In this document: piece by piece, positions 22,582 to 52,171 of the stretch | Layout: each line of letters opens with the position of its first letter | Numbering within the stretch: position 1 is the first letter of the stretch | DNA from: Ignavibacteria bacterium | GTDB lineage: Bacteria; Bacteroidota; Ignavibacteria; UBA10030 | Reading direction: 5' to 3' | Assembly: GCA_016873805.1 (NCBI GenBank) | Contig: VGVZ01000013.1 | Location: forward strand, 1-64,000 | DNA length: 64,000 nt | Notes under the pieces: model-generated | Database searches by the model: none | The model's input: the letters and a program-made list of their open reading frames with translations, nothing else | What the model was told of the DNA's origin: nothing | Translations under genes and position numbers: made by a program

Positions 22582-22584
22582 TTA

Positions 22585-36126: not shown

Positions 36127-38028
36127 TTATCGACTGAGTACGACCTTCTGCACGTCCCTCGACGATCCTGCCTCTACGCGAACGAAGTAGATACCGCTGG
36201 GATGCTTTCTTGCGTTCCATCGGACAGTGTGATAACCCGCGTCCAGTGTCTCTTCGACAAACACTTCTACTTTTCGGCCGATCAGATCGTAGACAGTTAT
36301 GACCGTATGACCGCGGACGGGAAGATCAAACGCGATGGTGGTTGATGGATTGAAAGGATTTGGAAAACTCGGGTAGACTTTGAGCGCGGAAGGAACCATC
36401 GACTTCTTGTCACGATCCGTGACGCTTGTAGGAGGATTGAGACGCTCCTGCAATTGCGCGAGATAGAGAGATTGCGGCCAGAGTCCAGGCCGGCCTGTTC
36501 CCTCGATAAATCCTTCCGGCTGGTTGAATGGCGCAGGCGGAAAAGTGCCGGTCACCGTGCCAACACAGCCGATGGCATAATTCTGAGCCGTCGGCGGTTT
36601 CTGGATGATAATTCTCCTCGTGCCGGCGTTCACATTCCATGCGACAGAGTGCACGGCGGCCCAACCGTGGCCCGTCCCATAATCGCCCCGATTGTACAGT
36701 CCCAGCACCATGCCTGTTGTTGTCGGATTCCGGATGATCAGGTTGTCATAGAGAAGTCCCTGACTCCACCACCGATGCCCCTCGCTGGGATTGTACGTAG
36801 AATCACTCACGCAGTTGTAAAAAACGATTCCCGATACCAGACTTGTGCCGTTGGAGACATAGTCGTGACGGCCGTATGACGCATAGCAGTCTTTGAAGAG
36901 AATCAGATTTGAAGCGGTGTAGGTATTGAAATTGTACCGGCGCTCTCCGTCGATGATGCTGATCGGACGTATCGCGGAACACGAATCAATCGTGATCCTT
37001 GATGCTGTGGCAGTTTTGAACCCTGACTGCCCAAAATGCAGAGTCGTCACCTTCCTGGCCCACGCATCTTCCACCAGCCGGAAGAGCACAGCATCCCACG
37101 CATGGTTCTCATCACCGTTCGCATCGGTCGTGGTACCCGGTGCCTCGATGACAATGCGCAGCCGTTCAATCCCGATGTTCGTTCTCAGATTTGTGCGAGC
37201 ATACCGATAGACGTACGATTGTGAAAGACTGCGAACAAGCGTGGCGAAGAGCGGCGCGTCTATGGTTATCGTGTTTCCGTCTTTTGCCACGACATATCGA
37301 TTATAGACAATGGGAACTGCAGTACTTGTTGTCCACGGGGGATCAGACGCCGTTCCACCGCCGCCAATGGCGTTCAACCATGCTTGAGTGACGGGGTGAT
37401 AGATGATGACGTTGTTGCCGATATTGAGATTCGTCGCATCCGCGACCTTGAATGTACGCGCACCAACGTAAACAGTATCAGAAACGATATCCGTTGGCTG
37501 TGTGCCCGCAAGGACGTGGGACCACTTCGTTTCGGAAGGCCCGCCTGCGATGAGAACCGTTCGCTGGTGCGGGGTATTTCCCGTCGCAACGATGATCGTG
37601 TTCTTTGTGGAATCCTCCCCATCACCCACGCCGCGAAGGACAACGCCGTTCACATTCAGATTGATGGTGCCGGATACACGATACACGCCCGCGGTCAAGA
37701 GAAGCGCTCCCCTGGTTCCCTGAGGATTCAGGGGATACAGATTGTTGTCCGAAAGCAGGATAATCGCGTTGTTGATACGGTTTGTGTTATCTCCAGTGTC
37801 CGGGCTTATCGTCATGATTACCGGCACATCGGGTATGGGCACGTTTCCGTTCTTGTATCCCGCATAGCTGAAGTCGGGAATGCGGTTCCCTTCGGCGTCC
37901 GGAACATACACAAGTTTCCCGTCCGTGCCGTAGTATACACGACTCGAGGACCAGCTTGGGACCTGTGCACACAGGCCGCGAGCGAGTGCGATCATCACCA
38001 CGATTATACCGAAACGCCACAAATGCAT
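36127..38028 (-). CDS. Secreted beta-helix protein with T9SS C-terminus, probable polysaccharide-active enzyme
   Basis: This protein of about 633 residues starts at an ATG preceded by GGAGA and carries a signal peptide ending ARGLCAQ. A single-stranded parallel beta-helix follows: the pectate-lyase-3-like opening DTGDNTNRINNAIILLSDNN lies near residue 80 and LLLTAGVYRVSGTINLNVNG near 115. It then has many turn asparagines and a run IERLRIVIEAP. A T9SS sorting domain starts near residue 550 (YPSFPNPFNPSTTIAFDLP) and ends VQKVVLSR. This fold is shared by pectate and alginate lyases, GH28 and GH55, but I cannot point to catalytic residues, so the activity is unknown. Surface export plus location between lyase genes supports action on the polymer before uptake. 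Confidence 0.72.
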   Translation of the reverse strand: MHLWRFGIIVVMIALARGLCAQVPSWSSSRVYYGTDGKLVYVPDAEGNRIPDFSYAGYKNGNVPIPDVPVIMTISPDTGDNTNRINNAIILLSDNNLYPLNPQGTRGALLLTAGVYRVSGTINLNVNGVVLRGVGDGEDSTKNTIIVATGNTPHQRTVLIAGGPSETKWSHVLAGTQPTDIVSDTVYVGARTFKVADATNLNIGNNVIIYHPVTQAWLNAIGGGGTASDPPWTTSTAVPIVYNRYVVAKDGNTITIDAPLFATLVRSLSQSYVYRYARTNLRTNIGIERLRIVIEAPGTTTDANGDENHAWDAVLFRLVEDAWARKVTTLHFGQSGFKTATASRITIDSCSAIRPISIIDGERRYNFNTYTASNLILFKDCYASYGRHDYVSNGTSLVSGIVFYNCVSDSTYNPSEGHRWWSQGLLYDNLIIRNPTTTGMVLGLYNRGDYGTGHGWAAVHSVAWNVNAGTRRIIIQKPPTAQNYAIGCVGTVTGTFPPAPFNQPEGFIEGTGRPGLWPQSLYLAQLQERLNPPTSVTDRDKKSMVPSALKVYPSFPNPFNPSTTIAFDLPVRGHTVITVYDLIGRKVEVFVEETLDAGYHTVRWNARKHPSGIYFVRVEAGSSRDVQKVVLSR

Positions 38029-38158
38029 TCGAGATCTTGTCTCCAGAAATTTCACGCGTGCAGAGCAAGTGAACAACAGCCCTTCCCCAATTCCAGATGT
38101 GACTGAGGAGTGAGAATCAGGAAGGCGATTCACTGCCGGAATTCACTATTCAAGACAA

Positions 38159-38193
38159 TCCCGGGACCTTCCAAACTGCAGAAGATCCCGGGA
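38159..38193 (-). terminator. Intercistronic hairpin after the G8-like gene
   Basis: Two copies of the self-complementary TCCCGGGA (38159-38166 and 38186-38193) can pair across a 19-base loop. The hairpin lies 13 bases after the stop codon of the G8-like gene. No T-run follows, so partial termination or processing is more likely than full termination. Confidence 0.45.
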
Positions 38194-38205
38194 GGTGAGA
38201 CAAGT

Positions 38206-39759
38206 CTATTTCATCAGCACCATCTTGCGCGTTTGCACCAAACGCTCGGTCGTCAACCGATAGAGGTATATCCCGCTGGGATACCCTGCCGCACTCCACG
38301 AGACCGAATAACTGCCCGATTCAAGCTGACGGTCCACCAGCGTCGCAATCTCCTTTCCAAGGAGGTCGAAGATCTTCAGCGTGACCTTCTCTGATCCGGG
38401 AAGACTGAATGCGATGTTCGTGGTCGGGTTGAACGGGTTCGGATAGTTTTGCTCGAGGGCAAACGTCGCCGGAACGTTCGACAGCTGCTCGACCGTCGTT
38501 GCCGGTTTTCGCAGCGTGTTGTCGGTCGTTCCTCTGACTCGTGCCAGCGCGAAGACAAAATACTGATTGGTATTCAGCGTTCGCGTGAAACTGACATCGG
38601 ACTGGATCAGCCTGGGAATCGAATCTTTTTCCAGCCTCGTCGTATGGAGAGCCGTATCGGGGCCGACGCCGATCCATGCGATGCGCGTGCTGTCGCTCAG
38701 ACCGACACGGAGATTCTGGTTGTTTGCCCCGACTCCGTCATCGAGGCCGTACGACGCCGTGACCCGGTCAAACGTCATCGACGTTGTCGAGGTTGTGCCC
38801 TGGTGATAACTCACGCGGTAGTACCGGACTTCGGAAACCTTATCAATCTTCGTGTCATAGGTGCTTGTTGCCGTTGCCGCATTTCCGGAGACAACTGCCA
38901 CGCGTACGTAATGACCGGTCGCGCCTCCCGGCGTCGTGCTGCGGACGTTCACGGGGCGGTAACCGAACGCGTCGCCGATATGGAAGGTGCGTGACGTGCC
39001 ACCGCCGTTGCTCATGCCGTGCCCCATTGCACCCAGCACATAGCTTGAATCGGACCATGCAGAGATTGCTGCGGCGTTCCCCCAGTTGTGCACCATCGCA
39101 AAGGAACCGGTTTCAACGACGCCGCGCGTAAAATACCAGTGCGGATTGCCGGGATTTCCCGTGGAACCGCCGGCACTGAAGATATCGCTTGCGAGAATGA
39201 CTTTGCCCGTCCCCGATTTGTTGATCGTGATCGCGTTGAACTCGTTATTTGTGGTGCTATACGTTCCCATTGTTACCGTACTGTTGGTTGACCCGAAAAA
39301 CTCAACATCACAGACGGCAAGAGTCGATCCGGATGAGCCCGCGCGCATGTCGAAGTTCACCCCTTCGTTCTTCAGATTGCCGGAGATCCGCATTTTGGTG
39401 AATGTCTCGCGTCGCGCAGCGTGAGTCAGCACTCTAAACGCCGCTCCGCTTCTCACCCACACGTCTCCGTTGACGGTGACCGTCACGGCCGTATCGCGTG
39501 CGAAACTCAGCACGCCGGAGGTTCCTTCGCCGACGGTGAGACTCTTGATCGTCACATCCCTATTCAGTGTTACGGTGTCGCCGTTTGCAATAACCACGTC
39601 GTTGTTCGCGCCGGGCACGACCCCGCCGAGCCAGGTGGCCGGATCGCTCCAGAGGCCGATCACGCCAGCCGACTTGATCGTCTGTGCCGACACGACGGTC
39701 GACATGAGGATCAGCGCGCCGACGAGTGTTGCCGGAAAGCTGTATGTCGATCGCTTCAT
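38206..39759 (-). CDS. Secreted G8-like protein with T9SS C-terminus
   Basis: This 517-residue exported protein has a signal peptide (ILMSTVVSAQ) and an N-terminal G8-like beta segment (GLWSDPATWLGGVVPGANND, residues about 36-55), then VVIANGDTVTLNRDV with successive beta strands. A long beta-rich middle follows, and a T9SS sorting domain from about residue 435 (LEQNYPNPFNPTTNIAFSL) ends in TRKMVLMK. G8-type regions occur in extracellular glycan-related proteins, but no catalytic motif is visible, so it may be a surface binding or scaffold protein. GGAG precedes the ATG. It sits between kduD and the beta-helix gene. The function is unknown. Confidence 0.72.
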   Translation of the reverse strand: MKRSTYSFPATLVGALILMSTVVSAQTIKSAGVIGLWSDPATWLGGVVPGANNDVVIANGDTVTLNRDVTIKSLTVGEGTSGVLSFARDTAVTVTVNGDVWVRSGAAFRVLTHAARRETFTKMRISGNLKNEGVNFDMRAGSSGSTLAVCDVEFFGSTNSTVTMGTYSTTNNEFNAITINKSGTGKVILASDIFSAGGSTGNPGNPHWYFTRGVVETGSFAMVHNWGNAAAISAWSDSSYVLGAMGHGMSNGGGTSRTFHIGDAFGYRPVNVRSTTPGGATGHYVRVAVVSGNAATATSTYDTKIDKVSEVRYYRVSYHQGTTSTTSMTFDRVTASYGLDDGVGANNQNLRVGLSDSTRIAWIGVGPDTALHTTRLEKDSIPRLIQSDVSFTRTLNTNQYFVFALARVRGTTDNTLRKPATTVEQLSNVPATFALEQNYPNPFNPTTNIAFSLPGSEKVTLKIFDLLGKEIATLVDRQLESGSYSVSWSAAGYPSGIYLYRLTTERLVQTRKMVLMK

Positions 39760-39837: not shown

Positions 39838-40590
39838 TTACCGCGCCATCCATCCCCCATCCACGACAAGAACGTGGCCGTTGACGTAGTCGGAAGCGGG
39901 AGAGGCGAGGAACACAGCCGCACCGGCGAGATCTTCAGGGAGTCCCCATCGCTGGGCCGGAATGCGTTCGAGAATCGATATTGATCTCACGGGATCCTCC
40001 CGAAGCGCTTTCGTATTATTTGTTGCCATGTAGCCGGGGGCAATGGCATTGATATTGATCCCGTGCTGGGCCCACTCATTGGCGAGCGCCTTCGTGATCT
40101 GCGCGACCGCACCCTTGCTTGCGCTGTACGAAGGAACCAGAATTCCCCCCTGGAAGCTCAAGAGCGAGGCGATGTTGATAATCTTTCCTTTCTTCTGCTT
40201 CATCATCTCACGCGCAACGGCCTGACTGAAAAAGAAGACGGTCTTCGAATTGATCGCCATTACTTCGTCCCAGTCTTTCTCCGAAAAATCGATTGCTGGA
40301 GTCCGGCGAATGATCCCGGCATTGTTCACGAGAATGTCCACCCGACCGAACGTGTCAATTGTCTTTTTGACGATCCCCGCGATCGGCTCGACCGTCATCA
40401 GGTTCGCTTCGATCACAAGCGACTTCCTCCCCAACGCCTTCAGCTCCTTCGCCGTTTCGCCGGAGTCCACATAGTCGACGAGAACGACGTCACATCCTGC
40501 CTTCGCGAGTCCGATGGACATTCCTTGTCCGAGTCCCGTACTGGACCCCGTGACGATGGCGACTTTGCCGGTGAGATCAAATGGATTCAT
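39838..40590 (-). CDS. kduD: 2-dehydro-3-deoxy-D-gluconate 5-dehydrogenase KduD
   Basis: This 250-residue SDR enzyme reduces 2,5-diketo-3-deoxygluconate (DKII) to 2-keto-3-deoxygluconate with NADH. The glycine-rich site is VTGSSTGLGQGMSIGL (residues 14-29), followed by NNAGI (near 90), the serine of NIASLLSFQGG and the YSASK catalytic pair (near 155). The stretch IIRRTPAIDFSEKDWDEVMA and the SLLSFQGGILVPSY block are diagnostic for KduD within the SDR family. It lies between the PL17 gene and the G8-like gene in the polyuronate run. Together with KdgF and KduI it completes the route from unsaturated uronate to KDG. Confidence 0.93.
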   Translation of the reverse strand: MNPFDLTGKVAIVTGSSTGLGQGMSIGLAKAGCDVVLVDYVDSGETAKELKALGRKSLVIEANLMTVEPIAGIVKKTIDTFGRVDILVNNAGIIRRTPAIDFSEKDWDEVMAINSKTVFFFSQAVAREMMKQKKGKIINIASLLSFQGGILVPSYSASKGAVAQITKALANEWAQHGININAIAPGYMATNNTKALREDPVRSISILERIPAQRWGLPEDLAGAAVFLASPASDYVNGHVLVVDGGWMAR

Positions 40591-40648: not shown

Positions 40649-42841
40649 CTACTCTCTCCAGAGTTTGAAATTCCCGACCCATGCGTAGGTCTTCCCTCCC
40701 GCTGTGACGGAATGCTTCGCGGTTTCTGAGGCGGGCTGGTGCGTTACGGCGAAGACAAGACGAAATCTGTTCGGGCCTGTGTACTCCACAACGGAGAAAT
40801 CGCGGGTCGAGACAAGCACACGTACTTCCTGAATCGATCCGCGCGTGCCGTAGGAAACCTCGGTCACCCCCTCGAAATATCCGTGTTCCTCAATTGCCGA
40901 GGCGAAGAGTGTGGACGCGGCGTTCCGCCTCAGGATAAGCGCAGGTTCGTTTCGAAGATTGAATTGGGGATCGCCAGCGCCGATCCGCGCAAACAGCGCC
41001 GTCGTCGGTTCATCGGCTGCGCTCACGACGGAATAGTATCGGTGATCGTTGAGCCACGTCAGGATGAAGCTCCCTGCGACTGTTCCTTCAGCCTCCTTCC
41101 AGAGATGCTGAAAGCCGTGCGACGCTCCGAGACGAGTTCTCACGGTATCGAATGCCTGGACCGTCGCATTCGTGTGCATGACGTGCCCGAGATAATAGAA
41201 GGGCAAATCGTATTGATGCGGTTTGCCTGACTCGATCCGAAACAAATCGAGGACAACCGGATGAGCCAGCCGCGGATCGTTGACGAGTGCCATGGTTCGC
41301 TGCATCGAGACACCGTCGTACAGGCCCTCCGCTTTTGCGCTCATCACCTGAACATTCGGATCGTTCGTCGAGAAGAAATGTCTCTCCGCGTGCTTCTTCG
41401 AGGCAACCTCAAACACGCCTCCATAGTGTGACCTTCCGTCCACCACGACCGTATTGTGTGCGATCGTCTGCTTTGCCCATGTATCGGTTTCGGGCAGATA
41501 CCGTCCTCCGAACTTCGGCTCGACATTGACGAATCTCGCCGCACCATAATCCTGTATGATCTCGCGCTCCTGATTACTCAGTAGGAACGAGAGACGGTCG
41601 TAGTGGCCGTGTCCATCTCCCTGAGCCGTGTATTTCATGGCGAGCATCGTGTGACCCTGTGTGCCGATCGACCTCAGGACTCCCACACCCCCTTCGGTGC
41701 CGTCTGGCCCGTCGCGCAACTCCATGCTGCGATAGCCGTTCGAAATTTCCTTCGGTGCGTCGGCGAGAATCCTCGCGGCGATCAGTCCCGCACCATCGAA
41801 TGTTACGCGGTTCTGCCGCCGGGCAAACCAGAGAAGCCCATGGTCGGAAGGATATCGCGCAACACAGACGTCAACGGCGAGAATCATCTCACGTGCGTGG
41901 AGGCTCATCTCTTTCATCGCATCATTGATCGGTAGAAATGTCCCGTTCGGATTGGTCAGTTGCACGGTCGCCCAGACTGCTTTCCTCAGAATTTGCTTTC
42001 GGTACTCGAAGATCTTCAACTCGGGCTGATTGTACTCGATCGCCTGAGCGAAGAAGATGAACGGCATGATGGCATAGCGGGCATAGTACGGGCCCTCCGC
42101 ATAATAGCCGTCAGGAGAAAAGAGCTCATTGAGCTGTCTCAGAAATCCGCCCGTGCCGTCTCTCTTCGTCCCGTACAGAGCGATGTCACTGAGCACCCGA
42201 TCGTTCACCGCATACCCCATCATGCCGAGCGCGGCCGACATCCACGTTCCGTGATTATGCATGCGGTCGACAGTGGACCGCTGTTCGTTGAGAAAGAACC
42301 GGACCATCGGGCGCAGAACTCCCTCTTCGATCGCCTTCCGATCCGACGGTTGCAACCAGTCATAGACACAGTCGTACGCCTGCGCCGCGTGCACCATCCA
42401 CACCGTTTCGTTCAACGGCTGCCAGAAAAGTCGGCCCCCTTTTGCATTGAGGGCCTTGGGATGAAGTTTGAGCGACGGATACAACCCGGCATATTGGAGA
42501 AACATCTCGCGCACGAACCGCGCATAGCGTTCATCCCCCGTCACCTGAAAGAGGAGTCCCGCCGCCTGCAATTCCCGATAGTTCTGTTTGTGACGCTCGT
42601 GCGTGTATCCGCCGGCATCGACAGGTCGCGGGACTTCTATCGGCGTGGAGACCGCCGCTTCAGCAACACGCTTCGCTTCCTCAAGCGCCTCGCGGAATAG
42701 CGGAGTCGAGCTTCCGTGGGCCCTGATCTCCGCGAGCTCCGGGGCCGAGACGAGGATCCGCGGGCGCGGAGGAGATTGCGCAATCGCGAAGTGGGAAACA
42801 AGAACAAGAGCGGCGATCGTGATGCTGAGCGTTCGGGTCAT
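40649..42841 (-). CDS. PL17-type oligoalginate lyase (heparinase II/III-like)
   Basis: This 730-residue exported exo-lyase has a signal peptide (ALVLVSHFAIAQS), an N-terminal (alpha/alpha)6 toroid and a C-terminal heparinase II/III-like beta-sheet domain, the arrangement of PL17 oligoalginate lyases. The catalytic region contains RMHNHGTWMSAALGMMGYAV (Asn/His pair, near residue 195) and a tyrosine-rich stretch FSPDGYYAEGPYYARYAIMPF (near 243) with the likely catalytic base. A zinc-type site in the C-terminal domain is suggested by AQGDGHGHYDRLSFLL (near 412). It would release unsaturated monomers (DEH precursors) from alginate oligomers. No T9SS tail is present, so it acts in the periplasm. 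PL15-like exolyases share parts of this fold. Confidence 0.9.
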   Translation of the reverse strand: MTRTLSITIAALVLVSHFAIAQSPPRPRILVSAPELAEIRAHGSSTPLFREALEEAKRVAEAAVSTPIEVPRPVDAGGYTHERHKQNYRELQAAGLLFQVTGDERYARFVREMFLQYAGLYPSLKLHPKALNAKGGRLFWQPLNETVWMVHAAQAYDCVYDWLQPSDRKAIEEGVLRPMVRFFLNEQRSTVDRMHNHGTWMSAALGMMGYAVNDRVLSDIALYGTKRDGTGGFLRQLNELFSPDGYYAEGPYYARYAIMPFIFFAQAIEYNQPELKIFEYRKQILRKAVWATVQLTNPNGTFLPINDAMKEMSLHAREMILAVDVCVARYPSDHGLLWFARRQNRVTFDGAGLIAARILADAPKEISNGYRSMELRDGPDGTEGGVGVLRSIGTQGHTMLAMKYTAQGDGHGHYDRLSFLLSNQEREIIQDYGAARFVNVEPKFGGRYLPETDTWAKQTIAHNTVVVDGRSHYGGVFEVASKKHAERHFFSTNDPNVQVMSAKAEGLYDGVSMQRTMALVNDPRLAHPVVLDLFRIESGKPHQYDLPFYYLGHVMHTNATVQAFDTVRTRLGASHGFQHLWKEAEGTVAGSFILTWLNDHRYYSVVSAADEPTTALFARIGAGDPQFNLRNEPALILRRNAASTLFASAIEEHGYFEGVTEVSYGTRGSIQEVRVLVSTRDFSVVEYTGPNRFRLVFAVTHQPASETAKHSVTAGGKTYAWVGNFKLWRE

Positions 42842-42889: not shown

Positions 42890-43648
42890 CTACACGAAAT
42901 AGGTGCCGCCATTGATTTCCACCGACTCCCCATTGATGAAGGAAGAGCGGGAAGAAACGAGAAAATGAACGAGGTCAGCGACCTCCTGGGCGTCACCTTC
43001 GCGGCCGAGGGGGGTCATGGCGGCAACCCGCTGGCGCACTTCCGGTTTTGTAAAAGTGTTGTGGAAGGTCGTGTTGATCATCCCCGGCGAAACGCAGTTC
43101 ACCCGAATCTTGCGCGGACCAAGCTCTTTCGCCAGTCCCCGGGTCATGGTCAAGACTCCTCCTTTTGCGGATGAGTAGGCAATCGCACCCATCCCGCCGC
43201 CGTCCCGGGCCGCCTGGGATGCAAAATTGACGATCGCACCGCCATCGGCAAAGTGCGGGAGCGCCGCTTTCGTCACGAGAAAGACAGATTTCATGTTGAG
43301 CGCGATGACGAAATCCCAAAAGCCTTCGTCCATCTCCGGCATCGTCTTCCGTCCAACGAGACCGCCTGCGACATTCACCAGGATGTGAATGGTGTCGCCA
43401 AACACCTTCCTTGCTTCGGAGACGAAACGTTCCACATCTTCGGTCTTGGTCATATCACCCTGCACGGCGATCGCTTTTCCGGCGGCTTCGGTGATCATCC
43501 TCACCGTCTCTTGCGCATCATTCGGGTTGTCGAAGTAGTTGAGCGCCACTGCTGCGCCGTCTTGCGCGAGCTTCATGCTCACGGCCCTGCCGATATCACG
43601 CGCGCCCCCCGTCACGAGGGCCACTTTGTTCTTCAATTCGTTCATCAT
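42890..43648 (-). CDS. SDR oxidoreductase, probable DEH (unsaturated uronate) reductase
   Basis: This short-chain dehydrogenase of about 252 residues has the glycine-rich motif LVTGGARDIGRAVSMKL (near residue 10), a cofactor loop YFDNPNDAQ, NVAGG near 90, and the catalytic YSSAK with an upstream serine in VNFASQAARDGGG (near 145-165). The ATG at 43648 has GGAACT upstream; earlier codons of the open frame overlap the preceding gene. It is FabG-like, but it lies directly upstream of the oligoalginate lyase gene, the usual place of reductases that convert DEH to KDG in alginate degraders. Cofactor preference (NADH or NADPH) is not certain, and general FabG-like ketoreductase activity is the alternative. 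Confidence 0.8.
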   Translation of the reverse strand: MMNELKNKVALVTGGARDIGRAVSMKLAQDGAAVALNYFDNPNDAQETVRMITEAAGKAIAVQGDMTKTEDVERFVSEARKVFGDTIHILVNVAGGLVGRKTMPEMDEGFWDFVIALNMKSVFLVTKAALPHFADGGAIVNFASQAARDGGGMGAIAYSSAKGGVLTMTRGLAKELGPRKIRVNCVSPGMINTTFHNTFTKPEVRQRVAAMTPLGREGDAQEVADLVHFLVSSRSSFINGESVEINGGTYFV

Positions 43649-43683: not shown

Positions 43684-45219
43684 TCAGAATCGGTATGTTG
43701 CTTCCACTCCGATGGAGTGAGCATAACGAGTGGTAAAATTCGTGTTGGAAAGCCATGTGTCGAAGAACTTCAGGTGTGAAAGCTCATACGAGAGGTCGAC
43801 ACTCACGATTCCGAGCGAAATCCCGAAACCGCCAGTATAGACCCGCGCACGTTCCACAACGGTCGGTTGCGCGGCGCCTTCGCCTGCAAAGACCTGCGGA
43901 TCCTCACGATAGCCGCCGCGAAGTGCGACTCCCTCGCTCACCAGATACTCGAACCCCATCCGATATCGCTTCGATGCGAACCACGGTTTCGACTCCGCCC
44001 CAGTCGGCTGAGCATAGGTCACATCGCCCAGTCCTCTGTCGTCATAGTCGACAGCGATCGTCACATTGTTATTCGGGTAGAGCACGAGACCAAAACCAAA
44101 TGCGACAGGATACCTGATGTCATCCTTCCCCGATGTCGGGATCGATTCTCGTACAATCGCTTTCTGCGCGTTGCGCTGCTCCACTGACGTGGTCATCGAC
44201 CACTCCCGTGTGATCGTATATGCCGGTGTCATCACGACACCAAGCGAGAAGAACTTCTTCTGATACGTCAATCCGATTTTCAGCATCGTTCCGTCGAACT
44301 CGGACGAACCGGTGCTCACGCCGTGGTAGAGAACCGAATCAACCTGCGGCATCGGATTGATCGCAACCGAAGTGGTGAGAGTTCTCAGGACAATCTCCGC
44401 CCGATCGTGCCGTTCGACGCGATCGTCGGATGAGCCGGTGAACAACGTCACCGACAGCCCTGCCGTCAATCCCTCGAGCAGTTCAATGGCGAAGCCGGGG
44501 GTAATTCCGTACACCGACCCTTTCCGCTCCGTCACATATTGGTAGAGACGGACGGCCATTGTATCGCCCACCTTTTTGAAGACCGGAACCGGCGCCGGAC
44601 GAAAACTCCCGATGTTGGGGGCAAGGACCGTATTGTTCTGGAAGTAATGGTCAAGGTTTATCATCTCGGCATACCCCAGCCCTGCAGCGAAGCGAAACGA
44701 GCCGAGTTGAAACGGGACGGCGGCCGCAGCCAACGACGGCCCGACGCGGCTCAGCGTCTTGCTCCAGTCCGTCCCCATGTTGTCCAACGGTTTCACGTTG
44801 AATAGTCGGCCATACCGATAGGATTGAGCCGGATCATTCCGGAACTTGTCGTTGATGGAATCGAAGATCGGCCCGTACTCCGGCTTGTTCTCAACGATCA
44901 TCGAGAACATGTCGACGTGATCATTCACATACCACCGTTGCTCCATGCTGTTGTCACGAATGCCAAGCGTCGCACCCAACCGGACTTCCATCGCCGGGAT
45001 ACCCACGAGGCCGGAGGGATTGCCGAAGAGATCCTGTGAGCTCCGCGTCGTGCCGAAGAGCGTTCCTCCCATGGCGCGCGCACGTGCACTCTGCGTCGAC
45101 ACGACATCCAATCCCTGCAAATTCAGAGGCGGCGCGACACCTTGGGCAAGCGCGACGACGGAGACGGAAGCCAGCAGGAACAGACAGACCGAAAAACATC
45201 CCAATGAGCGTATGTTCAT
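43684..45219 (-). CDS. OmpP1/PorV-like outer-membrane protein of the TonB-receptor set
   Basis: This beta-barrel-type outer-membrane protein of about 511 residues has a signal peptide (FSVCLFLLASVSVVALAQ) followed by VVSTQSARARAMGGTLFGTT and LFGNPSGLVGIPAMEVRLG. That is the alanine/glycine-rich opening shared by OmpP1/FadL and PorV-type proteins. The middle has an alternating strand pattern and the chain ends SIGVEATYRF. Its ATG overlaps the stop codon of the upstream PorV/PorQ-like gene (ATGA), so the pair is translationally coupled and probably functions together. It is the fourth gene of a set (TonB receptor, T9SS-sorted protein, PorV-like, this one). The ligand or partner is unknown. Confidence 0.75.
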   Translation of the reverse strand: MNIRSLGCFSVCLFLLASVSVVALAQGVAPPLNLQGLDVVSTQSARARAMGGTLFGTTRSSQDLFGNPSGLVGIPAMEVRLGATLGIRDNSMEQRWYVNDHVDMFSMIVENKPEYGPIFDSINDKFRNDPAQSYRYGRLFNVKPLDNMGTDWSKTLSRVGPSLAAAAVPFQLGSFRFAAGLGYAEMINLDHYFQNNTVLAPNIGSFRPAPVPVFKKVGDTMAVRLYQYVTERKGSVYGITPGFAIELLEGLTAGLSVTLFTGSSDDRVERHDRAEIVLRTLTTSVAINPMPQVDSVLYHGVSTGSSEFDGTMLKIGLTYQKKFFSLGVVMTPAYTITREWSMTTSVEQRNAQKAIVRESIPTSGKDDIRYPVAFGFGLVLYPNNNVTIAVDYDDRGLGDVTYAQPTGAESKPWFASKRYRMGFEYLVSEGVALRGGYREDPQVFAGEGAAQPTVVERARVYTGGFGISLGIVSVDLSYELSHLKFFDTWLSNTNFTTRYAHSIGVEATYRF

Positions 45220-46259
45220 TTGAATTTCACTCCCATAGAAATGCGGTGGACCTGTCCGAGGTATTCTCCCATCGCACCGTAGCTGTAGTCCAATCCCACA
45301 TTGAAACCGGACAATGTTGTTCGGAGGCCTCCGCCAAATGTGAGGCCGTCGGCGTCGTAGTTCCATTTGTACCCTCCCCGCAGAAAGACGCTCTCGGACA
45401 AGCTGTATTCGGCACCAAAGTGCATCTGTTGCGCGTAGTCGTTCGGTTGAACCATGTCGTAGGCAACAGTGAATCTGTTGTGGTCATTCAAAATGAACAA
45501 CGCGTTTTCTCCTATGAGATTCAGAGAGGTGCCGAGCCGGAACGTCAGCGGAGCCGGATAGGCATCCACGCCGTACTTCACGCTCGGACCGAGATTCTGG
45601 ACAGCCACGCCCACCTGAATGGACCGGAATCCCGTGTTGTACCGCAGACCATAGTCGAAGAGAAACACTCGGGCGTACGTTCGATATTCGACTTTCTCCC
45701 CTTCCGGAGTGACCACCGTGATCGTCCGATTTCCGTACAGCGATTCGTTCACGAACTTCACCGTCAGACCTGTCGAGAATCGATCGGTCAGCGAGCGTGC
45801 ATAGGTGATGCCTGCGACATATGCCGACGGTCTGAATGTTCGTCCGGTGATCCCGGGATTGTATCGTCGATCAGCGCCGCTGCCGATGAATCTCAATTCC
45901 TCGACGGTCGTCTCGACCATGTCACCGAAATCGACGTACTGCAGTTGAAATCCGAGCGAGCCCCAATCGCCGAGCGGTAACGCGTACGCGAGCGCCCCCT
46001 GCTTGGTGTCGAACAGCCAGAGGGTAAGTGTGGAGGTAATCTCGTGCTGTTCCGTGAGGGCCACGCCCGCCGGATTCCAGAAGACGGCATCCGCGCCGAT
46101 CGCTTGAGTGCTGTACGCTTCACCCATCGCCGTCGCTCGGGACGTTGGCATCACTTTCAGAAACTGGAACGAGCTCGTTGCCACCTTCTGAGCCAGCAAC
46201 AGATTGATTCCGCCCTGCATGAGGGATGCGGCGAGCAGAAATACGATTGTGCGTTTCAT
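45216..46259 (-). CDS. PorV/PorQ-like outer-membrane protein
   Basis: This 347-residue outer-membrane beta-barrel of the PorV/PorQ kind has a signal peptide (LLAASLMQGGINLLLAQ), then FLKVMPTSRATAMGEAYSTQ and AVFWNPAGVALTEQHEI, the typical start of this group. Regular strands follow to the terminal VHRISMGVKFK. PorV recognises the C-terminal signals of T9SS substrates, whereas PorQ-like proteins also occur in uptake or attachment contexts. The gene lies 20 bases after a T9SS-sorted protein gene and overlaps the next barrel gene. A dedicated role in presenting that T9SS protein beside the TonB receptor is my inference. It need not be the housekeeping PorV. Confidence 0.8.
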   Translation of the reverse strand: MKRTIVFLLAASLMQGGINLLLAQKVATSSFQFLKVMPTSRATAMGEAYSTQAIGADAVFWNPAGVALTEQHEITSTLTLWLFDTKQGALAYALPLGDWGSLGFQLQYVDFGDMVETTVEELRFIGSGADRRYNPGITGRTFRPSAYVAGITYARSLTDRFSTGLTVKFVNESLYGNRTITVVTPEGEKVEYRTYARVFLFDYGLRYNTGFRSIQVGVAVQNLGPSVKYGVDAYPAPLTFRLGTSLNLIGENALFILNDHNRFTVAYDMVQPNDYAQQMHFGAEYSLSESVFLRGGYKWNYDADGLTFGGGLRTTLSGFNVGLDYSYGAMGEYLGQVHRISMGVKFK

Positions 46260-46279
46260 TGTCCGTGTTCCACGTACTG

Positions 46280-48487
46280 TTAGTGAATGATCACAAACTT
46301 ACCGTTCGTCTTCTTTCCTTCAGGAGTCTCGACCACGAAGAAGTAGACTCCGGAAGCAATCATCTGATTGTTGCGGGTTACCTGAAGATATTCGACCGAG
46401 TATGCTTCGCTCTGATGCTCGATCGTCTGAACGAGCTGGCCCGAATACGAATAGATTCGGATGGTACAGATTTTCGGGAGATTGTAGAATCCGATCTTGA
46501 GTCGCGCTTCGCCAACACCTCCGGCCGTTGTTCCCGAAAAACCGGATTGACCGATGAAGGGATTTGGTACGACGTACACTTTTTCCAGTTCATCCGTTCC
46601 GCCGATCTGCGTCTCGAAAAACCTCATATTCGTCTTGCCGCTCTTGTTCCCCTTGTTGTCGACCGAGACAACCGCGTAGTAGAAGACCTGCCCCACCGCG
46701 GTGCTCGCGTCCTTTACTTCATACATTCCTTCTTCCATATACCTCGAATCGCCGCGCGGCACGGTCGCGATGACGGTCCACGGTCCCAACGGATGATTTG
46801 CCTTGAGGACCTCGTAGTGGCTGAAGCTGCCCGACAGACGCGGATGATTGAATGCCTCGACTTGCGTCCCCCAGCTGAGCACGTTTTCTGCCAACGGTGT
46901 GTTCGAAAACTTGACGACCGGCGAAGGGTACGTCGCGCCGAAGGAGTACACACCCCTCGAAGGGGCGCCTTCAGGTTTGTACTGCGTCGTGTCGTAGTCC
47001 ATATGACTGTATCCGGAGTAGGCCTGGATTGCCCGATCGGTAACGTCGCGGACCGTGACAACCTTCGAATTCACGTAGTCCGGAATGGGATTCGTACTGA
47101 GATACTTGCTCCCTACCGTGTGCGATCCGTTCCCGACAAACGTCGTGTCGATGTACCAGTTCGGGGGGGCTTGATACCGGTCGATGTACAGATCGTGATC
47201 GCGAACGCCCCCTCTCGTTTCCTCGAGCGTCGCCGCGCCATATCCGGCTACCTCCGCAAGAGCGATGCGAACTTTCTGACCTTTGGGCATGTGATAGGGT
47301 CCAAGAAAGAGAACTCGTCCGACTCCAGCCGTTCGCCGATATCCCCTTGCGCGCCCGGTCCAATACTCTCCCCCGTCGTATTTGTTCAGATTGGCTGCGT
47401 CGTAGATACCTGTCGCGGTCGTGACGCGCCGATCGATATCGAGGTACGGCTGAACTTTCGAGGAACGGGTGTTCGAGGTCTCGGTCCAGACTGCCCATGG
47501 CTGCCGGAGCTTGCCGGTGGTCGCATCCCACGCGATCGGAATCTGAGCAGACGGGATCACGACGTTACTGGCATCCCGGTGGGTGAGCGAAGTCGTGTCG
47601 TAGTACAACAGTGAAAACCCGACTGCCTGCGGTGAGAGGAGTCCGCCGCCGTATCGTTTCGACGAGCTCCACTGAGTGAAATAGCTCCCGTTCGGTTCAG
47701 GCATCCCGTTGGCGCTTGTGCTGTACAACAGCCACCGCCGTTGATCAAAACGAGCCCGCGTGTTTGCTTCCATGTCGAGATAGTACCACCGATTGAAGTT
47801 CCGGAAGTAGCCAAACATTGAGGGGGGCAGTCCGTAGACAAATCCGAAGAGGACATCGCGCAGTGTGGCATTCGATTCGATCGTCGATGGCTTGCCGTCA
47901 CGATCCCCTGTGTTTTCGAATTCGTACTCATAGATGATGAAATCATCGTAGTCCGGATGACTCCATGACCGGCTGGTGCGCGTCACCGTGATACCCACAT
48001 TGGTTCCCCACTTCGCCACAATGACCTCTTCAGCTTCATTTGGATTGTAGGCGGGATTCAGATCGCCGTTGGGAAGGAGTGGGAAGTTTTCTGTCCGCGT
48101 GATACTCAGAGGGAATGTATAGATGCTCGTCGTGATTTCGGCCGTACTGGCCCCGACGCCGCCGCAAAGGGAGTACAGGCGGGCGCTCGTGTCGGTCGGA
48201 CTCACGCCGATCCAGACACCACCGCCGAGCGTGTTGTGCTGACCGTCGTATTCTTTCTGATCGATGATCGCCCTTGAGTATGCCGGCCATTCGAAGAGCG
48301 GAACCGAGGTGGAATTTCCCGCATTCCCCTGCGTGTAACTTCGGGCGATCTCGCCGGTGTTGAACACCGTCTGATGGAGCGTTCCCCGACTGTGAACCTC
48401 GTATGTTCGCTCCTGCGCCTTCATCAGTGATGCGGCACACACCATCATTATCACAACTCTCGTGCTGAATTTCATAGCGCTATCCAT
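46280..48487 (-). CDS. Large T9SS-sorted surface protein of the TonB-receptor set
   Basis: I do not recognise a catalytic family in this protein of about 735 residues. A signal peptide (VVIMMVCAASLMKA) is followed by a long beta-rich ectodomain (ESNATLRDVLFGFVYGLPPS near residue 200, several repeated W/Y-rich strands), a fibronectin-like segment near 575 (HYEVLKANHPLGPWTVIATV), and a C-terminal T9SS domain (VYVVPNPFIGQSGFSGTT, ending GKFVIIH). The start is the ATG at 48487 or the in-frame ATG 12 bases on. It lies 5 bases after the TonB receptor gene and 20 bases before the PorV-like gene. By position it could play the part that SusD-like lipoproteins play for SusC: surface glycan capture. That is inference. 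Confidence 0.72.
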   Translation of the reverse strand: MDSAMKFSTRVVIMMVCAASLMKAQERTYEVHSRGTLHQTVFNTGEIARSYTQGNAGNSTSVPLFEWPAYSRAIIDQKEYDGQHNTLGGGVWIGVSPTDTSARLYSLCGGVGASTAEITTSIYTFPLSITRTENFPLLPNGDLNPAYNPNEAEEVIVAKWGTNVGITVTRTSRSWSHPDYDDFIIYEYEFENTGDRDGKPSTIESNATLRDVLFGFVYGLPPSMFGYFRNFNRWYYLDMEANTRARFDQRRWLLYSTSANGMPEPNGSYFTQWSSSKRYGGGLLSPQAVGFSLLYYDTTSLTHRDASNVVIPSAQIPIAWDATTGKLRQPWAVWTETSNTRSSKVQPYLDIDRRVTTATGIYDAANLNKYDGGEYWTGRARGYRRTAGVGRVLFLGPYHMPKGQKVRIALAEVAGYGAATLEETRGGVRDHDLYIDRYQAPPNWYIDTTFVGNGSHTVGSKYLSTNPIPDYVNSKVVTVRDVTDRAIQAYSGYSHMDYDTTQYKPEGAPSRGVYSFGATYPSPVVKFSNTPLAENVLSWGTQVEAFNHPRLSGSFSHYEVLKANHPLGPWTVIATVPRGDSRYMEEGMYEVKDASTAVGQVFYYAVVSVDNKGNKSGKTNMRFFETQIGGTDELEKVYVVPNPFIGQSGFSGTTAGGVGEARLKIGFYNLPKICTIRIYSYSGQLVQTIEHQSEAYSVEYLQVTRNNQMIASGVYFFVVETPEGKKTNGKFVIIH

Positions 48488-48492
48488 GACAG

Positions 48493-51270
48493 TTAGAAGT
48501 TGACGACAAATCCCACCGTAATCGAACGCGGAGAGCTATCATAAATGAGATACGAAATATCCCACATCAGAAGCCCTGAGAGATCTTCCGCATCCTTCCA
48601 TATCGGCAGCTGACTTTTGTCTGTTTCAAACTTATTGCGGTTGACCGGATTGCGGAATACCGGCGTGTACGCGTATCGCTTGTCGTTGAAGACGTTGAGG
48701 ATTTCCACGTAGAACGATGCTGATCGTCCGAAGAGATTGGGCACCGTTTTCGTAATCTTCAGGTCCGTGTTGCTTTCCATCGGCGTGCGTCTCTTGAACC
48801 GCTCCCCGAGATCAAGATCCGATGTATATGGCCGACCGCTTCGAAGGAATGATTTCATGCCGACCGACACGCGTTCGAAGGGATACATCCCGAAGGCCTG
48901 GATTCCGTACTGAGGAGGCGTTTCGACGCCGATCGTCGCGACGAGATTGTGTGTCCGGTCGAAATCGAGCAAGATATCCTCGGCACTGGGAGTGTCTTCG
49001 GCACGCGCGGCAGCAGGATTTTCTCTGATGATCGGCGAGGCATCGAATGGTGTGCTGCTCTTGCCGGTGGCGACTTGATAGTTGTAGTTCAACGAGCCTG
49101 TGAGAATACCGCGTCGCTTATTGAACGAGAAACGGAAGCCGCGAATATCGGCGTAGTCGCGGTTGATGTATGTCTCATAGAACTCGATTGAGCCTTTGGC
49201 CGGAAAATAAAATGCACGCTCGATGAGGTTGCTCACGTCCTTGTAGTAGCCGCTGAGATCGACGGTGAATCCTTCGCCCAGGCCCTGCGTGACACCAACA
49301 TCGTAGCTCTTCGTGTCTTGAGGTTTCAGCAACGGATTGCCGACCAGAATCGGCGCACGCGTGATGAGACTAACCTCCTTCCCGGTAATGTACTGGAACG
49401 GCGGACGCTGCAGGAATGATCCATAGTTCATGTGAAAAACGGTCGAGACGGAGACGGGAAATGAAATGCCGATGCGAGGTTGAACCCTTGTCACGAGGGG
49501 CGTCTTCGCCTTCTCGGATCCCTCGATCGGTTGAAACACGTTGGTAAAGTACTCGACATTCGGATTGTACACGTCGTACCGGATACCGACGTTGGCGATC
49601 ATTCCCTCGAATTCCATTTTATCCTGCAGATAGAGGGCCCACTCGGTCGGCTTCGCCTGGTAGTACTGATCGCGGGTCTGTCCGGGAGCCGACCGGGAAA
49701 GACTATTCTTGAGCTGCAGGTCATACGCGATCAGCTGGAATCCGCCGAGGAGCATGTGTGTGTTGGTCACCTGGCTGGTGAACGAACCATCGACCGAGAC
49801 AGTGGAGGTATATTCGTCCCGGAAGGCGGTATCCATGTATCCCGTGCGGTAGTTGTCACCCCCCGTCTGCACTCTCCACATGTTGTTGCCCAGCACGTCG
49901 TCGGTCCTCCACCGGTCCGGCGCCAGAGCCGGGCTTCCTTCGTCGGTCTTCGTGATCAGGCGGGCGAGTTTCAGTTCGAGGAAGGTGCGCTCACTCGGCA
50001 CATATGTGAACCTGAGGCCGAGCGAGCCGTTGCTCTGAGTTACTTTGTTCAATCCCATGACCCGATCCCAGATCCAGTACCGGTAATCGGTGCTTGTCGG
50101 TGAGTTCAGCGCCCGGTAGTCATGAAGGTTGTTGAAGGACATCGCGCCGCTCAACCGCAGCCACATGCTGGAGCTGAGCATCCAAGCGAGGTTGGCGGTC
50201 GCCTGTTGGGTGATATCCGGGTTTGGAGCCGGCAACTCCTGCCAGGTGCTTGTATATCGGGATGCGACAAAGAGGGTTAGTTCCGGAGAGAGAGGTCCCC
50301 CCGCATTGAATTCAGCCGAGTAATCCCACAGGTTGTTGTACGACTTCCCATAGTCTCGACGGAGCTGCATGTACATCGCATGCGCAATCCGTCCGGCCAG
50401 TACGGTGTCCTGCAGGTATGTCGATGTTGACACGAAACTCTGGAGCCAGAGGCGCACGCTGTCTTCACGCATCGTCATCTTTTCGGCGGAGTCGAACACG
50501 CGGAGATACTGGTTGGTGTTCGGATCCCAGACGCTGGGCCCGAAGTGTTTGTATCCGGGCAATCGGGTGCGCAACTCGGCACGACCGGTCCACCGGCTTC
50601 GGTTTCCTTCTTTCAACGAGATGTTGACAACGCCCGATTGCGCATTGCCGTACTTCGCGCTGAAGCCGCTCATGATGATTTCGATTTCCTCCACTGCGCT
50701 GAGGATCGGTGCAACCGCCAGCGCGTTGTCCAGAGGATTGGTCACCCCCATGCCGGACATCGTGTAAAGCTCCTCCCCCGAGCGCCCGCCGCGAAAATGC
50801 CCATCGACAACATCCGGTGAGAGCGCCATAACGGCTTCGAGATCACGTGTTCCCGGGATCGCCAGCGCCTGATCTCCTCGAATCACATCGCTCGTTGAGG
50901 TCTTATCGCGCGACACGTCGGGTCGCTCCGCTACGATAACGATCTCGTCCTTGATCTCCAGGACCGTTTCTGTCAGCTGGAAATCCAACGTGGTCGTTCG
51001 ATCGATACTCACCCGGACGTCTTCCATGGTCACGGTTTTGTAGCCGATCATGGAGGCCGAGACGGTGTAGATCCCGGGCGGCACTCGCAGAATGAAGTAC
51101 TGACCCTGAAGATCGGACGCCGCGCCGAGTCCGGCATCACGGATCATCACATTGACGCCGGTCAGCAGTTCGCCCGTTTGGATATCGCGGATGGTTCCGG
51201 CGATTTTGCCGGTGTTCTGCGCATACAGGGATGCGCTCAATAGAAGAGAGAGAAGAATTGCCCTCATCAT
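48493..51270 (-). CDS. SusC-like TonB-dependent receptor of the polyuronate locus
   Basis: This TonB-dependent outer-membrane receptor of about 925 residues has a signal peptide (ILLSLLLSASLYAQ), a carboxypeptidase-regulatory-like domain (GKIAGTIRDIQTGELLTGVN, residues about 21-105) and a plug with TSDVIRGDQALAIPGTRDLE and VNISLKEGNRSRWTGRAELR. A barrel with many aromatic strands follows, ending SPRSITVGFVVNF. The ATG at 51270 has AAGGA upstream. It is the first gene of the polyuronate run. No SusD gene accompanies it; instead a T9SS-sorted protein and two PorV/OmpP1-type barrels follow. Import of uronic-acid oligosaccharides is inferred from the lyases downstream. Confidence 0.88.
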   Translation of the reverse strand: MMRAILLSLLLSASLYAQNTGKIAGTIRDIQTGELLTGVNVMIRDAGLGAASDLQGQYFILRVPPGIYTVSASMIGYKTVTMEDVRVSIDRTTTLDFQLTETVLEIKDEIVIVAERPDVSRDKTSTSDVIRGDQALAIPGTRDLEAVMALSPDVVDGHFRGGRSGEELYTMSGMGVTNPLDNALAVAPILSAVEEIEIIMSGFSAKYGNAQSGVVNISLKEGNRSRWTGRAELRTRLPGYKHFGPSVWDPNTNQYLRVFDSAEKMTMREDSVRLWLQSFVSTSTYLQDTVLAGRIAHAMYMQLRRDYGKSYNNLWDYSAEFNAGGPLSPELTLFVASRYTSTWQELPAPNPDITQQATANLAWMLSSSMWLRLSGAMSFNNLHDYRALNSPTSTDYRYWIWDRVMGLNKVTQSNGSLGLRFTYVPSERTFLELKLARLITKTDEGSPALAPDRWRTDDVLGNNMWRVQTGGDNYRTGYMDTAFRDEYTSTVSVDGSFTSQVTNTHMLLGGFQLIAYDLQLKNSLSRSAPGQTRDQYYQAKPTEWALYLQDKMEFEGMIANVGIRYDVYNPNVEYFTNVFQPIEGSEKAKTPLVTRVQPRIGISFPVSVSTVFHMNYGSFLQRPPFQYITGKEVSLITRAPILVGNPLLKPQDTKSYDVGVTQGLGEGFTVDLSGYYKDVSNLIERAFYFPAKGSIEFYETYINRDYADIRGFRFSFNKRRGILTGSLNYNYQVATGKSSTPFDASPIIRENPAAARAEDTPSAEDILLDFDRTHNLVATIGVETPPQYGIQAFGMYPFERVSVGMKSFLRSGRPYTSDLDLGERFKRRTPMESNTDLKITKTVPNLFGRSASFYVEILNVFNDKRYAYTPVFRNPVNRNKFETDKSQLPIWKDAEDLSGLLMWDISYLIYDSSPRSITVGFVVNF

Positions 51271-51331
51271 TGTACGTTCCTTCTGACGGATATCGACACT
51301 GAGATGATGCATCACGAGTACTGGAATCTGT

Positions 51332-51427: not shown

Positions 51428-52171
51428 TCATTGTCCCGCTGAATCGGTTTGCCGCTGCGACTGCAACATGATATTGACGTGCTCTTCTGCGATTCGGAGG
51501 TGCTCGCGCATGGCATTCTGTGCCCCCTCCGCATCGCGGGCAAGAATGCGTTCGAGGATTTTCCCGTGCCATTCCACAGCGGATTCCTGAGCATTCTTCA
51601 CCGATGCATAGACCGAAGATTTGATCTGCGGCATCAGGCGATGGATCGGTTCCAGCAGAAGAGGGACGATCACGTTCTCGGACGCCCTGGCGATGTTCAG
51701 GTGAAATCTCATGTCGAGGCGCGAAAGGTCTTCGTAGTTTCCGCTGCATTGCTTCAGTTCATCGAAATCCTGAACCAACATGCGCGCATCTTCGTCAGTG
51801 TGATTCACTGCCGCGGATGCGGCAATCGGCGGCTCAATGATCTGTCGGGCATGTACGATGTCCAATGCGTAGTCCTCCTCGCACTGGAGTTTCAAATAGA
51901 GGTGAAGCGGATCAGTCACGGTTTCCGCGGAGAAATTCTGCACGAACATCCCCCGCCCCTTCTCGATGGAAATCAGACCCCGAGCATTAAGCATCCGGAG
52001 TGCCTCCCGGATCGCCGTGCGGCTGACCCCAAATTGCTCACAAAGCTCGTTCTCAGATGGAAGTCTCGAACCGGGACGGAGAATCTTGGAACGAATGGCC
52101 TCCTCAATCTGATTCTCGACAACCTTGCTCAGGAGTTTGCGATGACCAACCTGATTGAAGACATGCGACAT
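51428..52171 (-). CDS. GntR-family (FadR subfamily) transcriptional regulator
   Basis: This 247-residue regulator has an N-terminal winged helix (SKVVENQIEEAIRSKILRPG and LCEQFGVSRTAIREALRMLN, residues about 15-70) and an FCD-type all-helical effector domain. The FCD metal-binding histidines appear in RLDMRFHLNIARAS (near residue 144) and MREHLRIAEEHVNI (near 225). FadR-subfamily regulators such as UxuR, ExuR and KdgR-like proteins sense uronate intermediates. It lies directly upstream of the polyuronate run and just downstream, in transcription order, of the glycerate kinase remnant. A perfect ATGTC-n-GACAT palindrome covers its own promoter, indicating autoregulation. An effector such as KDG, KDPG or a uronate is inferred. 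Confidence 0.9.
   Translation of the reverse strand: MSHVFNQVGHRKLLSKVVENQIEEAIRSKILRPGSRLPSENELCEQFGVSRTAIREALRMLNARGLISIEKGRGMFVQNFSAETVTDPLHLYLKLQCEEDYALDIVHARQIIEPPIAASAAVNHTDEDARMLVQDFDELKQCSGNYEDLSRLDMRFHLNIARASENVIVPLLLEPIHRLMPQIKSSVYASVKNAQESAVEWHGKILERILARDAEGAQNAMREHLRIAEEHVNIMLQSQRQTDSAGQ

Follow-up and report, generated by a model that had tools for sequence, protein, structure and literature searches.

PorV is reported to carry off T9SS cargo with type A sorting domains, in which a near-invariant lysine close to the end contacts PorV, and cargo with type B domains is reported to exit on alternative carriers that anchor it (PMC10994853). Type B cargo genes are described as clustering with their PorP/SprF genes, and the sorting domain of PorZ as being retained on PorQ; the same source suggests that cognate PorV-like barrels may shield sorting domains from cleavage (PMC10202324). 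BamG, according to PMC12611786, anchors the surface protein BamH next to BamA.

Here we analyse a gene set from an Ignavibacteria bacterium (GCA_016873805.1, contig VGVZ01000013.1, positions 1-64,000; this whole 64,000-nt stretch is referred to as the window), in which an earlier note had seen a possible alternative to SusD-based capture and uptake of polysaccharides. Our analysis supports that reading: the gene set is a conserved module, which recurs beside polyuronate enzymes and whose trees split by substrate.

Organization of the locus

The module comprises four genes, here called TBDT, T9P, PorVa and PorVb in the order of their transcription, and is listed here with a regulator gene upstream and further genes of the locus:

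51428-52171, reverse strand: GntR/FCD regulator, upstream of the module (FCD 82.7, GntR 80.4 bits)
48493-51270, reverse strand: TBDT, TonB-dependent receptor and first module gene, 925 aa from the ATG at 51270
46280-48487, reverse strand: T9P, T9SS-sorted protein, 735 aa
45216-46259, reverse strand: PorVa, PorV/PorQ-family barrel, 347 aa
43684-45219, reverse strand: PorVb, barrel of FadL/BamG fold, 511 aa from the coupled ATG
42890-43645, reverse strand: SDR-family dehydrogenase, just downstream (adh_short_C2 195.2 bits)
40649-42841, reverse strand: PL17-type oligoalginate lyase (Hepar_II_III_C 91.4, Alginate_lyase 46.3 bits)
39838-40590, reverse strand: KduD (TIGR01832 382 bits, cut-off 338.85)
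20791-24111, reverse strand: two PL6-family (Chondroitinase B) genes (PF14592, 337.6 and 173.8 bits)

ORF coordinates bear out the compact layout noted earlier, with gaps of 5 bases between TBDT and T9P and 20 bases between T9P and PorVa, and the stop codon of PorVa overlapping the start of PorVb in an ATGA (45216-45219), an arrangement of translational coupling. An alternative start for TBDT, a GTG at 51315, appears in the ORF calls. By sequence reading, all four proteins possess a signal-peptide-like N-terminus running to A-Q, and a lipobox is visible in none of them. Scans for promoters and terminators returned no excess over shuffled sequences (7 vs. 6.5 and 12 vs. 10.7, respectively).

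With uptake genes standing beside enzymes for one glycan, the region is a polysaccharide utilisation locus and, judged by its gene content, serves alginate or a similar polyuronate, because it encodes a PL17-type oligoalginate lyase (694.8 bits to NF042990, under the cut-off of 1400), KduD, two PL6 proteins and a GntR regulator. Three further observations concern the surroundings. Within the same polyuronate region, the module-receptor profile picked up a second TonB-receptor-like gene (8612-11356, 914 aa), which has neither a T9P nor a PorV partner. At 36127-39759 lie two more T9SS-sorted proteins, of which one contains a G8 domain and the other shows weak similarity to a hyaluronan lyase family, and at 374-1747 a further PorVb/PorV-like barrel of 457 aa (75.4 bits to PorV_fam, under cut-off).

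The window lacks SusD, as had been stated, and the only PF07980 and PF14322 matches of this genome fall on another contig (C1; the window is C13). There, the sole SusD gene of the genome (L096) follows a SusC-sized receptor gene and precedes a small gene and one for a T9SS-sorted protein; both solutions therefore coexist in one genome. Among 61 related genomes, PF07980 was matched in 18 and PF14322 in 10 (7 over cut-off), with no match to either model on a T9P-bearing contig. For Melioribacter roseus, SusCDE genes are on record (PMC3534657). The T9SS itself is encoded in the genome of the window, as seen from SprA (1162 bits) and PorU (995 bits), the latter beside a core PorV that is separate from PorVa.

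Properties of the four proteins

TBDT combines the barrel and plug of a TonB-dependent receptor. Its CarboxypepD_reg (58.3 bits) and OMP_b-brl_3 (39.5 bits, cut-off 27) matches both exceed the Pfam cut-offs, TonB-receptor models match in part, and the plug segment is conserved among 54 relatives, with Plug itself absent from the Pfam matches of the protein. The earlier label 'SusC-like' proved too specific: TIGR04056 scored 38.7 against a cut-off of 368.25 bits, and only over the N-terminal CarboxypepD part, so that a SusC/RagA identity was dropped. A search for solved structures close in sequence to TBDT, T9P or PorVa yielded none, the one row returned being at chance level (E 0.9).

T9P consists of a signal peptide followed by three parts:

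46940-48415, reverse strand: N part (~residues 25-516), GH116/GH94-type beta-sandwich in the structure model
46607-46939, reverse strand: FnIII domain (~residues 517-627; VIA-align Z about 10, rmsd 2.2-2.9)
46283-46597, reverse strand: C-terminal sorting domain (~residues 631-735), with a nearly invariant K730

That this protein is T9SS-sorted, as proposed earlier, finds support in TIGR04183, whose cut-off of 23 is exceeded by 1.7 bits (24.7), but not in the Pfam sorting-domain model PF18962, which stays under its cut-off (17.3 vs. 27). A Pfam scan of T9P gave neither an enzyme domain nor a match to a SusD model. Its structure was modelled with intermediate confidence (pLDDT 63.1, pTM 0.66; 259 of 735 residues under 50). 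In comparisons with VIA-align, the N part resembled the N-terminal part of TxGH116 (Z 17.6, rmsd 3.6 A, 283 aligned residues, 7% identity), GH94-type phosphorylases (Z about 13-15) and a polysaccharide lyase (Z 11.0), a match that comes from VIA-align only and is absent from the best 50 of Foldseek, where FnIII and Bap chains rank. The model thus offers moderate evidence for a sugar-enzyme-type beta-sandwich; in GH116, the beta-sandwich is a non-catalytic domain. For the sorting domain, the closest solved counterpart of the model in VIA-align was that of PorZ (5m11; Z 12.4, 2.6 A, 88 aligned residues, 26% identity), ahead of that of PorU (Z 9.4). K730, kept in 57 of 59 T9P relatives, is in our own reading of the sequences the probable equivalent of the type A lysine that contacts PorV.

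Of the two barrels, which had together been described as PorV/OmpP1-like, PorVa belongs to the PorV/PorQ family (NF033709 198.5 vs. cut-off 90; Pfam PorV PF19572 35.6 vs. 27), while PorVb reached no family cut-off in profile scans and was placed by its model (pLDDT 68.3, pTM 0.68), which has the FadL/BamG fold (FadL Z 32.8, BamG Z 30.7, PorV Z 24.2). Two identities were rejected, namely that of PorVa with the core PorV of the T9SS (NF033710 78.5 vs. 250; a different gene adjoins porU) and that of PorVb with BamG (NF053685 46.1 vs. 250), despite the same fold.

Recurrence of the module in related genomes

The search for T9P relatives covered 61 related genomes, GTDB contigs (19 loci) and 148 genomes from across the phylum, and 133 loci were kept once duplicates had been removed. 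At E<1e-50, T9P was present in 27 of the 61 related genomes (49 places typed, fragments merged). Among 61 T9P-family ORFs, a TBDT gene lay upstream in 56 of 59 testable cases, 57 of 60 were followed by a PorV-family gene, and both partners were found in 53 of the 58 cases in which both sides could be tested. The order of the genes, whose search in relatives had been suggested as a check, recurs in nearly every relative examined, next to polyuronate enzymes. Ordinary T9SS sorting-domain proteins (n = 79), taken from the same stretches rather than as a random genome sample, had a TBDT gene upstream in 0 of 68 and a PorV gene in 1 of 69 cases, the single instance being the core porU-porV pair; with such proteins in the same loci lacking these partners, a chance arrangement was dismissed.

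Inspection of the T9P exceptions revealed one locus with PorVa present after all (L169; 51.9% identity, ORF called too long), a tandem T9P pair with one TBDT and one PorVa in common (L066), a T9P split over two ORFs (L088), three loci that end at contig ends (L081, L046, L032), and a broken copy with an internal stop and neither a TBDT nor a PorV neighbour (L091).

PorVb is confined to T9P modules: it comes after PorVa at 51 of the 61 T9P places and at none of the 57 places with other cargo (see below). The PorVa and PorVb genes overlap by 4 bases in 30 of 51 pairs as called; the pair of the window, called from an upstream start, is the 31st. Directly after PorVb, alginate-type loci carry two conserved small genes to which no family was assigned:

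L041:10555-11361: small gene after PorVb, about 268 aa, 10 loci
L037:13762-14442: small gene after PorVb, about 226 aa, 9 loci; weak outer-membrane-barrel match

The same triple with other cargo

The T9P sorting domain retrieved 57 further cargo genes, mostly of about 590-1330 aa, so that these loci were picked by sorting-domain similarity and are not a random genome sample. Cassette and ordinary sorting domains were parted at a 42-bit line, set after inspecting the scores, with no such protein scoring at 38-47 bits. A TBDT gene preceded the cargo in 49 of 54 testable cases, a PorV-family gene followed in 53 of 56, and both were present in 47 of 53. The exceptions comprise second cargo genes within one set (L187 and L165, the latter with tandem cargo genes that have one TBDT and one PorV-family gene in common), a locus in which no TBDT was found (L188), two with neither partner (L100, L150) and four at contig ends (L168, L147, L035, L167).

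Across the 47 complete triples, sorting-domain, PorV and TBDT distances correlated with r of 0.81-0.92, a level reached in 0 of 999 permutations, in line with joint inheritance as a unit. Many cargo proteins of 590-870 aa matched the T9P N profile, and longer ones did so weakly or not at all; when 10 other cargo proteins were scanned with Pfam, their N parts received no family, and two weak C-terminal matches stayed under cut-off. The genome of the window alone encodes four more TBDT-cargo-PorV triples on other contigs (L097, L098 and, twice, L099), with cargo of about 790-1180 aa, and holds 10 PorV-family genes over cut-off. Since the triple recurs with other cargo (47 of 53), the receptor-cargo-PorV architecture looks general.

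Alginate and pectin branches

Genes flanking T9P modules in 51 loci encode GH28 (16 genes in 15 loci), GH88 (9 loci), CE8 (8 genes in 7 loci), GDSL esterases (6 loci), PL10 (4 loci) and PL17 (4 loci), the families having been typed by one scanned representative per group, for the PL17 group the window's own protein; PL6 and PL9 occur among further flanking-gene representatives. T9P-bearing genomes contain 66 GH28 and 39 PL6 genes, of which at least 20 and at least 12, respectively, are no more than 20 kb away from a T9P gene, both being lower bounds given short contigs; random placement would give at most 1.5 and 1.2. Left out of this count were weak or fragment PL6 rows (G001, G020, G036), GH28 fragments of counted ORFs and two merged pairs; a GH28 row of G020 under the cut-off was retained. 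Strong PL6 matches occur in 13 genomes, every one of which has T9P; one more genome scored over the PL6 cut-off (G020; 27.4 bits in fragments, dropped) and lacks T9P. GH28 is present in 12 T9P-free genomes as well.

When 59 T9P loci were labelled by their own enzymes, 19 were assigned to alginate, 19 to pectin, none to both, and 21 stayed unlabelled. In a quick tree of T9P, one fully supported branch parts the 19 alginate from the 19 pectin loci, so that a single change of label suffices, and FastTree trees likewise needed one change each for TBDT (54 rows, 35 labelled), PorVa (54 and 34) and PorVb (48 and 33). Since members of both halves coexist in 8 of 34 genomes, with both labelled by their own neighbours in three (G027, G056, G088), the module trees split by sugar rather than by organism. 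Such a split would be expected of genes for substrate-specific capture and uptake; still, enzymes and T9P could share it through inheritance of whole loci, and it marks linkage, not proof of function.

Proposed mechanism and alternatives

We think it rather likely that the module mediates TonB-dependent uptake of uronic-acid oligosaccharides, with T9P held by PorVa and feeding TBDT. From the gene set, its order and coupling, family membership, the substrate-tracking trees and the T9SS in the same genome, we infer surface retention, complex formation, glycan binding, import and a role for PorVb along the following lines. T9P would exit via Sec and the T9SS translocon, whereupon PorVa, encoded by the next gene, would take up its sorting domain and retain T9P as a non-covalent membrane anchor. 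Retention of this kind has been proposed for PorZ on PorQ and for type B cargo on PorP/SprF, and PorVa looks like a private carrier and anchor of T9P, not a second channel. Most simply, T9P would act for the receptor whose gene precedes its own; it would be positioned over or beside TBDT and hand oligosaccharides to it, as SusD does for SusC. TonB energy would then drive the oligosaccharides inward, and lyases, KduD and the 2-keto-3-deoxygluconate pathway would complete their breakdown. PorVb is probably a scaffold that lies against the receptor or T9P, a role for which BamG-BamH may serve as a model.

PorU could, however, cleave the sorting domain of T9P, which would then be released or LPS-fixed as a free glycan-binding protein, secreted or on the surface, leaving PorVa a mere shuttle and the receptor without a stable assembly. 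A PorU sortase is encoded in the genome, and cargo sorting domains are described as usually PorU-cleaved (PMC10202324, PMC11285876). Yet if the core PorV were enough, there would be little reason for a single cargo to have a PorV paralogue of its own. Moreover, among solved sorting domains the closest is that of PorZ, which is reported as retained, and receptor, cargo and PorV stand together in 53 of 58 T9P and 47 of 53 other-cargo places testable on both sides; we consider release or LPS fixation unlikely.

T9P might be the surface enzyme of the locus, a lyase or hydrolase, with a receptor independent of it, given that its sandwich is similar to domains found in GH116, in GH94-type phosphorylases and in a polysaccharide lyase. 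This is improbable in light of the missing Pfam enzyme domain, a model without an alpha/alpha barrel after the sandwich, the PL6, PL17, GH28, PL9 or PL10 genes already in T9P loci, and the linkage of T9P to TBDT and PorV rather than to one enzyme family. A role of the set in export or outer-membrane assembly of the secreted lyases, instead of uptake, is suggested by the BamG/FadL fold of PorVb and the many neighbours that bear T9SS sorting domains, but we give this very little credence: ordinary sorting-domain proteins come without the set (TBDT 0 of 68, PorV 1 of 69), the gene that always comes first encodes a TonB-dependent receptor, all four trees follow the sugar, and PorVb scores far under the BamG model cut-off (46.1 vs. 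250).

Relation to known systems

Returning to uptake with T9P held by PorVa, a wider proposal is that TBDT, a T9SS cargo and a cognate PorV-family barrel form a general class of outer-membrane uptake systems, of an origin independent of SusCD and with cargo diversified for many substrates, across Ignavibacteria, KSB1 and other related SusD-scarce lineages, and that the polyuronate branch gained the fourth barrel. We regard the chances of this as evenly balanced. If true, the SusCD idea would have evolved a second time from unrelated parts, linking the T9SS to nutrient import; many genes annotated merely as 'T9SS sorting domain protein' or 'PorV/PorQ family protein' would receive a function, and the many PorV copies in such genomes would in part be accounted for. 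The clade of a module, alginate or pectin, would moreover reveal which sugar an uncultured bacterium imports.

In the open-licence literature, covered mostly as titles and beginnings of abstracts and with subscription papers outside its scope, we recognised no published description of the gene set. Like SusC-SusD (RagA-RagB), the module joins a TonB-dependent barrel to a surface partner encoded by the next gene, sits in a polysaccharide locus and occurs in paralogous sets for different sugars. It differs in a receptor that is not SusC/RagA by the curated model, in a partner that is not SusD and, without a visible lipobox, is a beta-rich T9SS cargo, and in having a PorV-family barrel as a further member, joined here by a fourth barrel. 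With PorZ-PorQ and PorU-PorV it has in common a T9SS cargo whose sorting domain stays on a PorV-family barrel, as is proposed for T9P, whereas the cargo of those pairs belongs to the secretion machine and T9P accompanies a nutrient receptor within sugar loci. Type B cargo resembles T9P in that its gene adjoins that of its own PorV-like carrier and anchor, PorP/SprF, a role proposed here for PorVa; by contrast, the T9P domain is type A-like (TIGR04183), its partner is of the PorV/PorQ family, and a TBDT gene lies in front. BamG-BamH, finally, offers a precedent for a FadL-fold barrel beside another barrel, with BamG holding the surface protein BamH; PorVb has the fold, but scores well short of the BamG cut-off and is associated with a TonB receptor instead of BamA.
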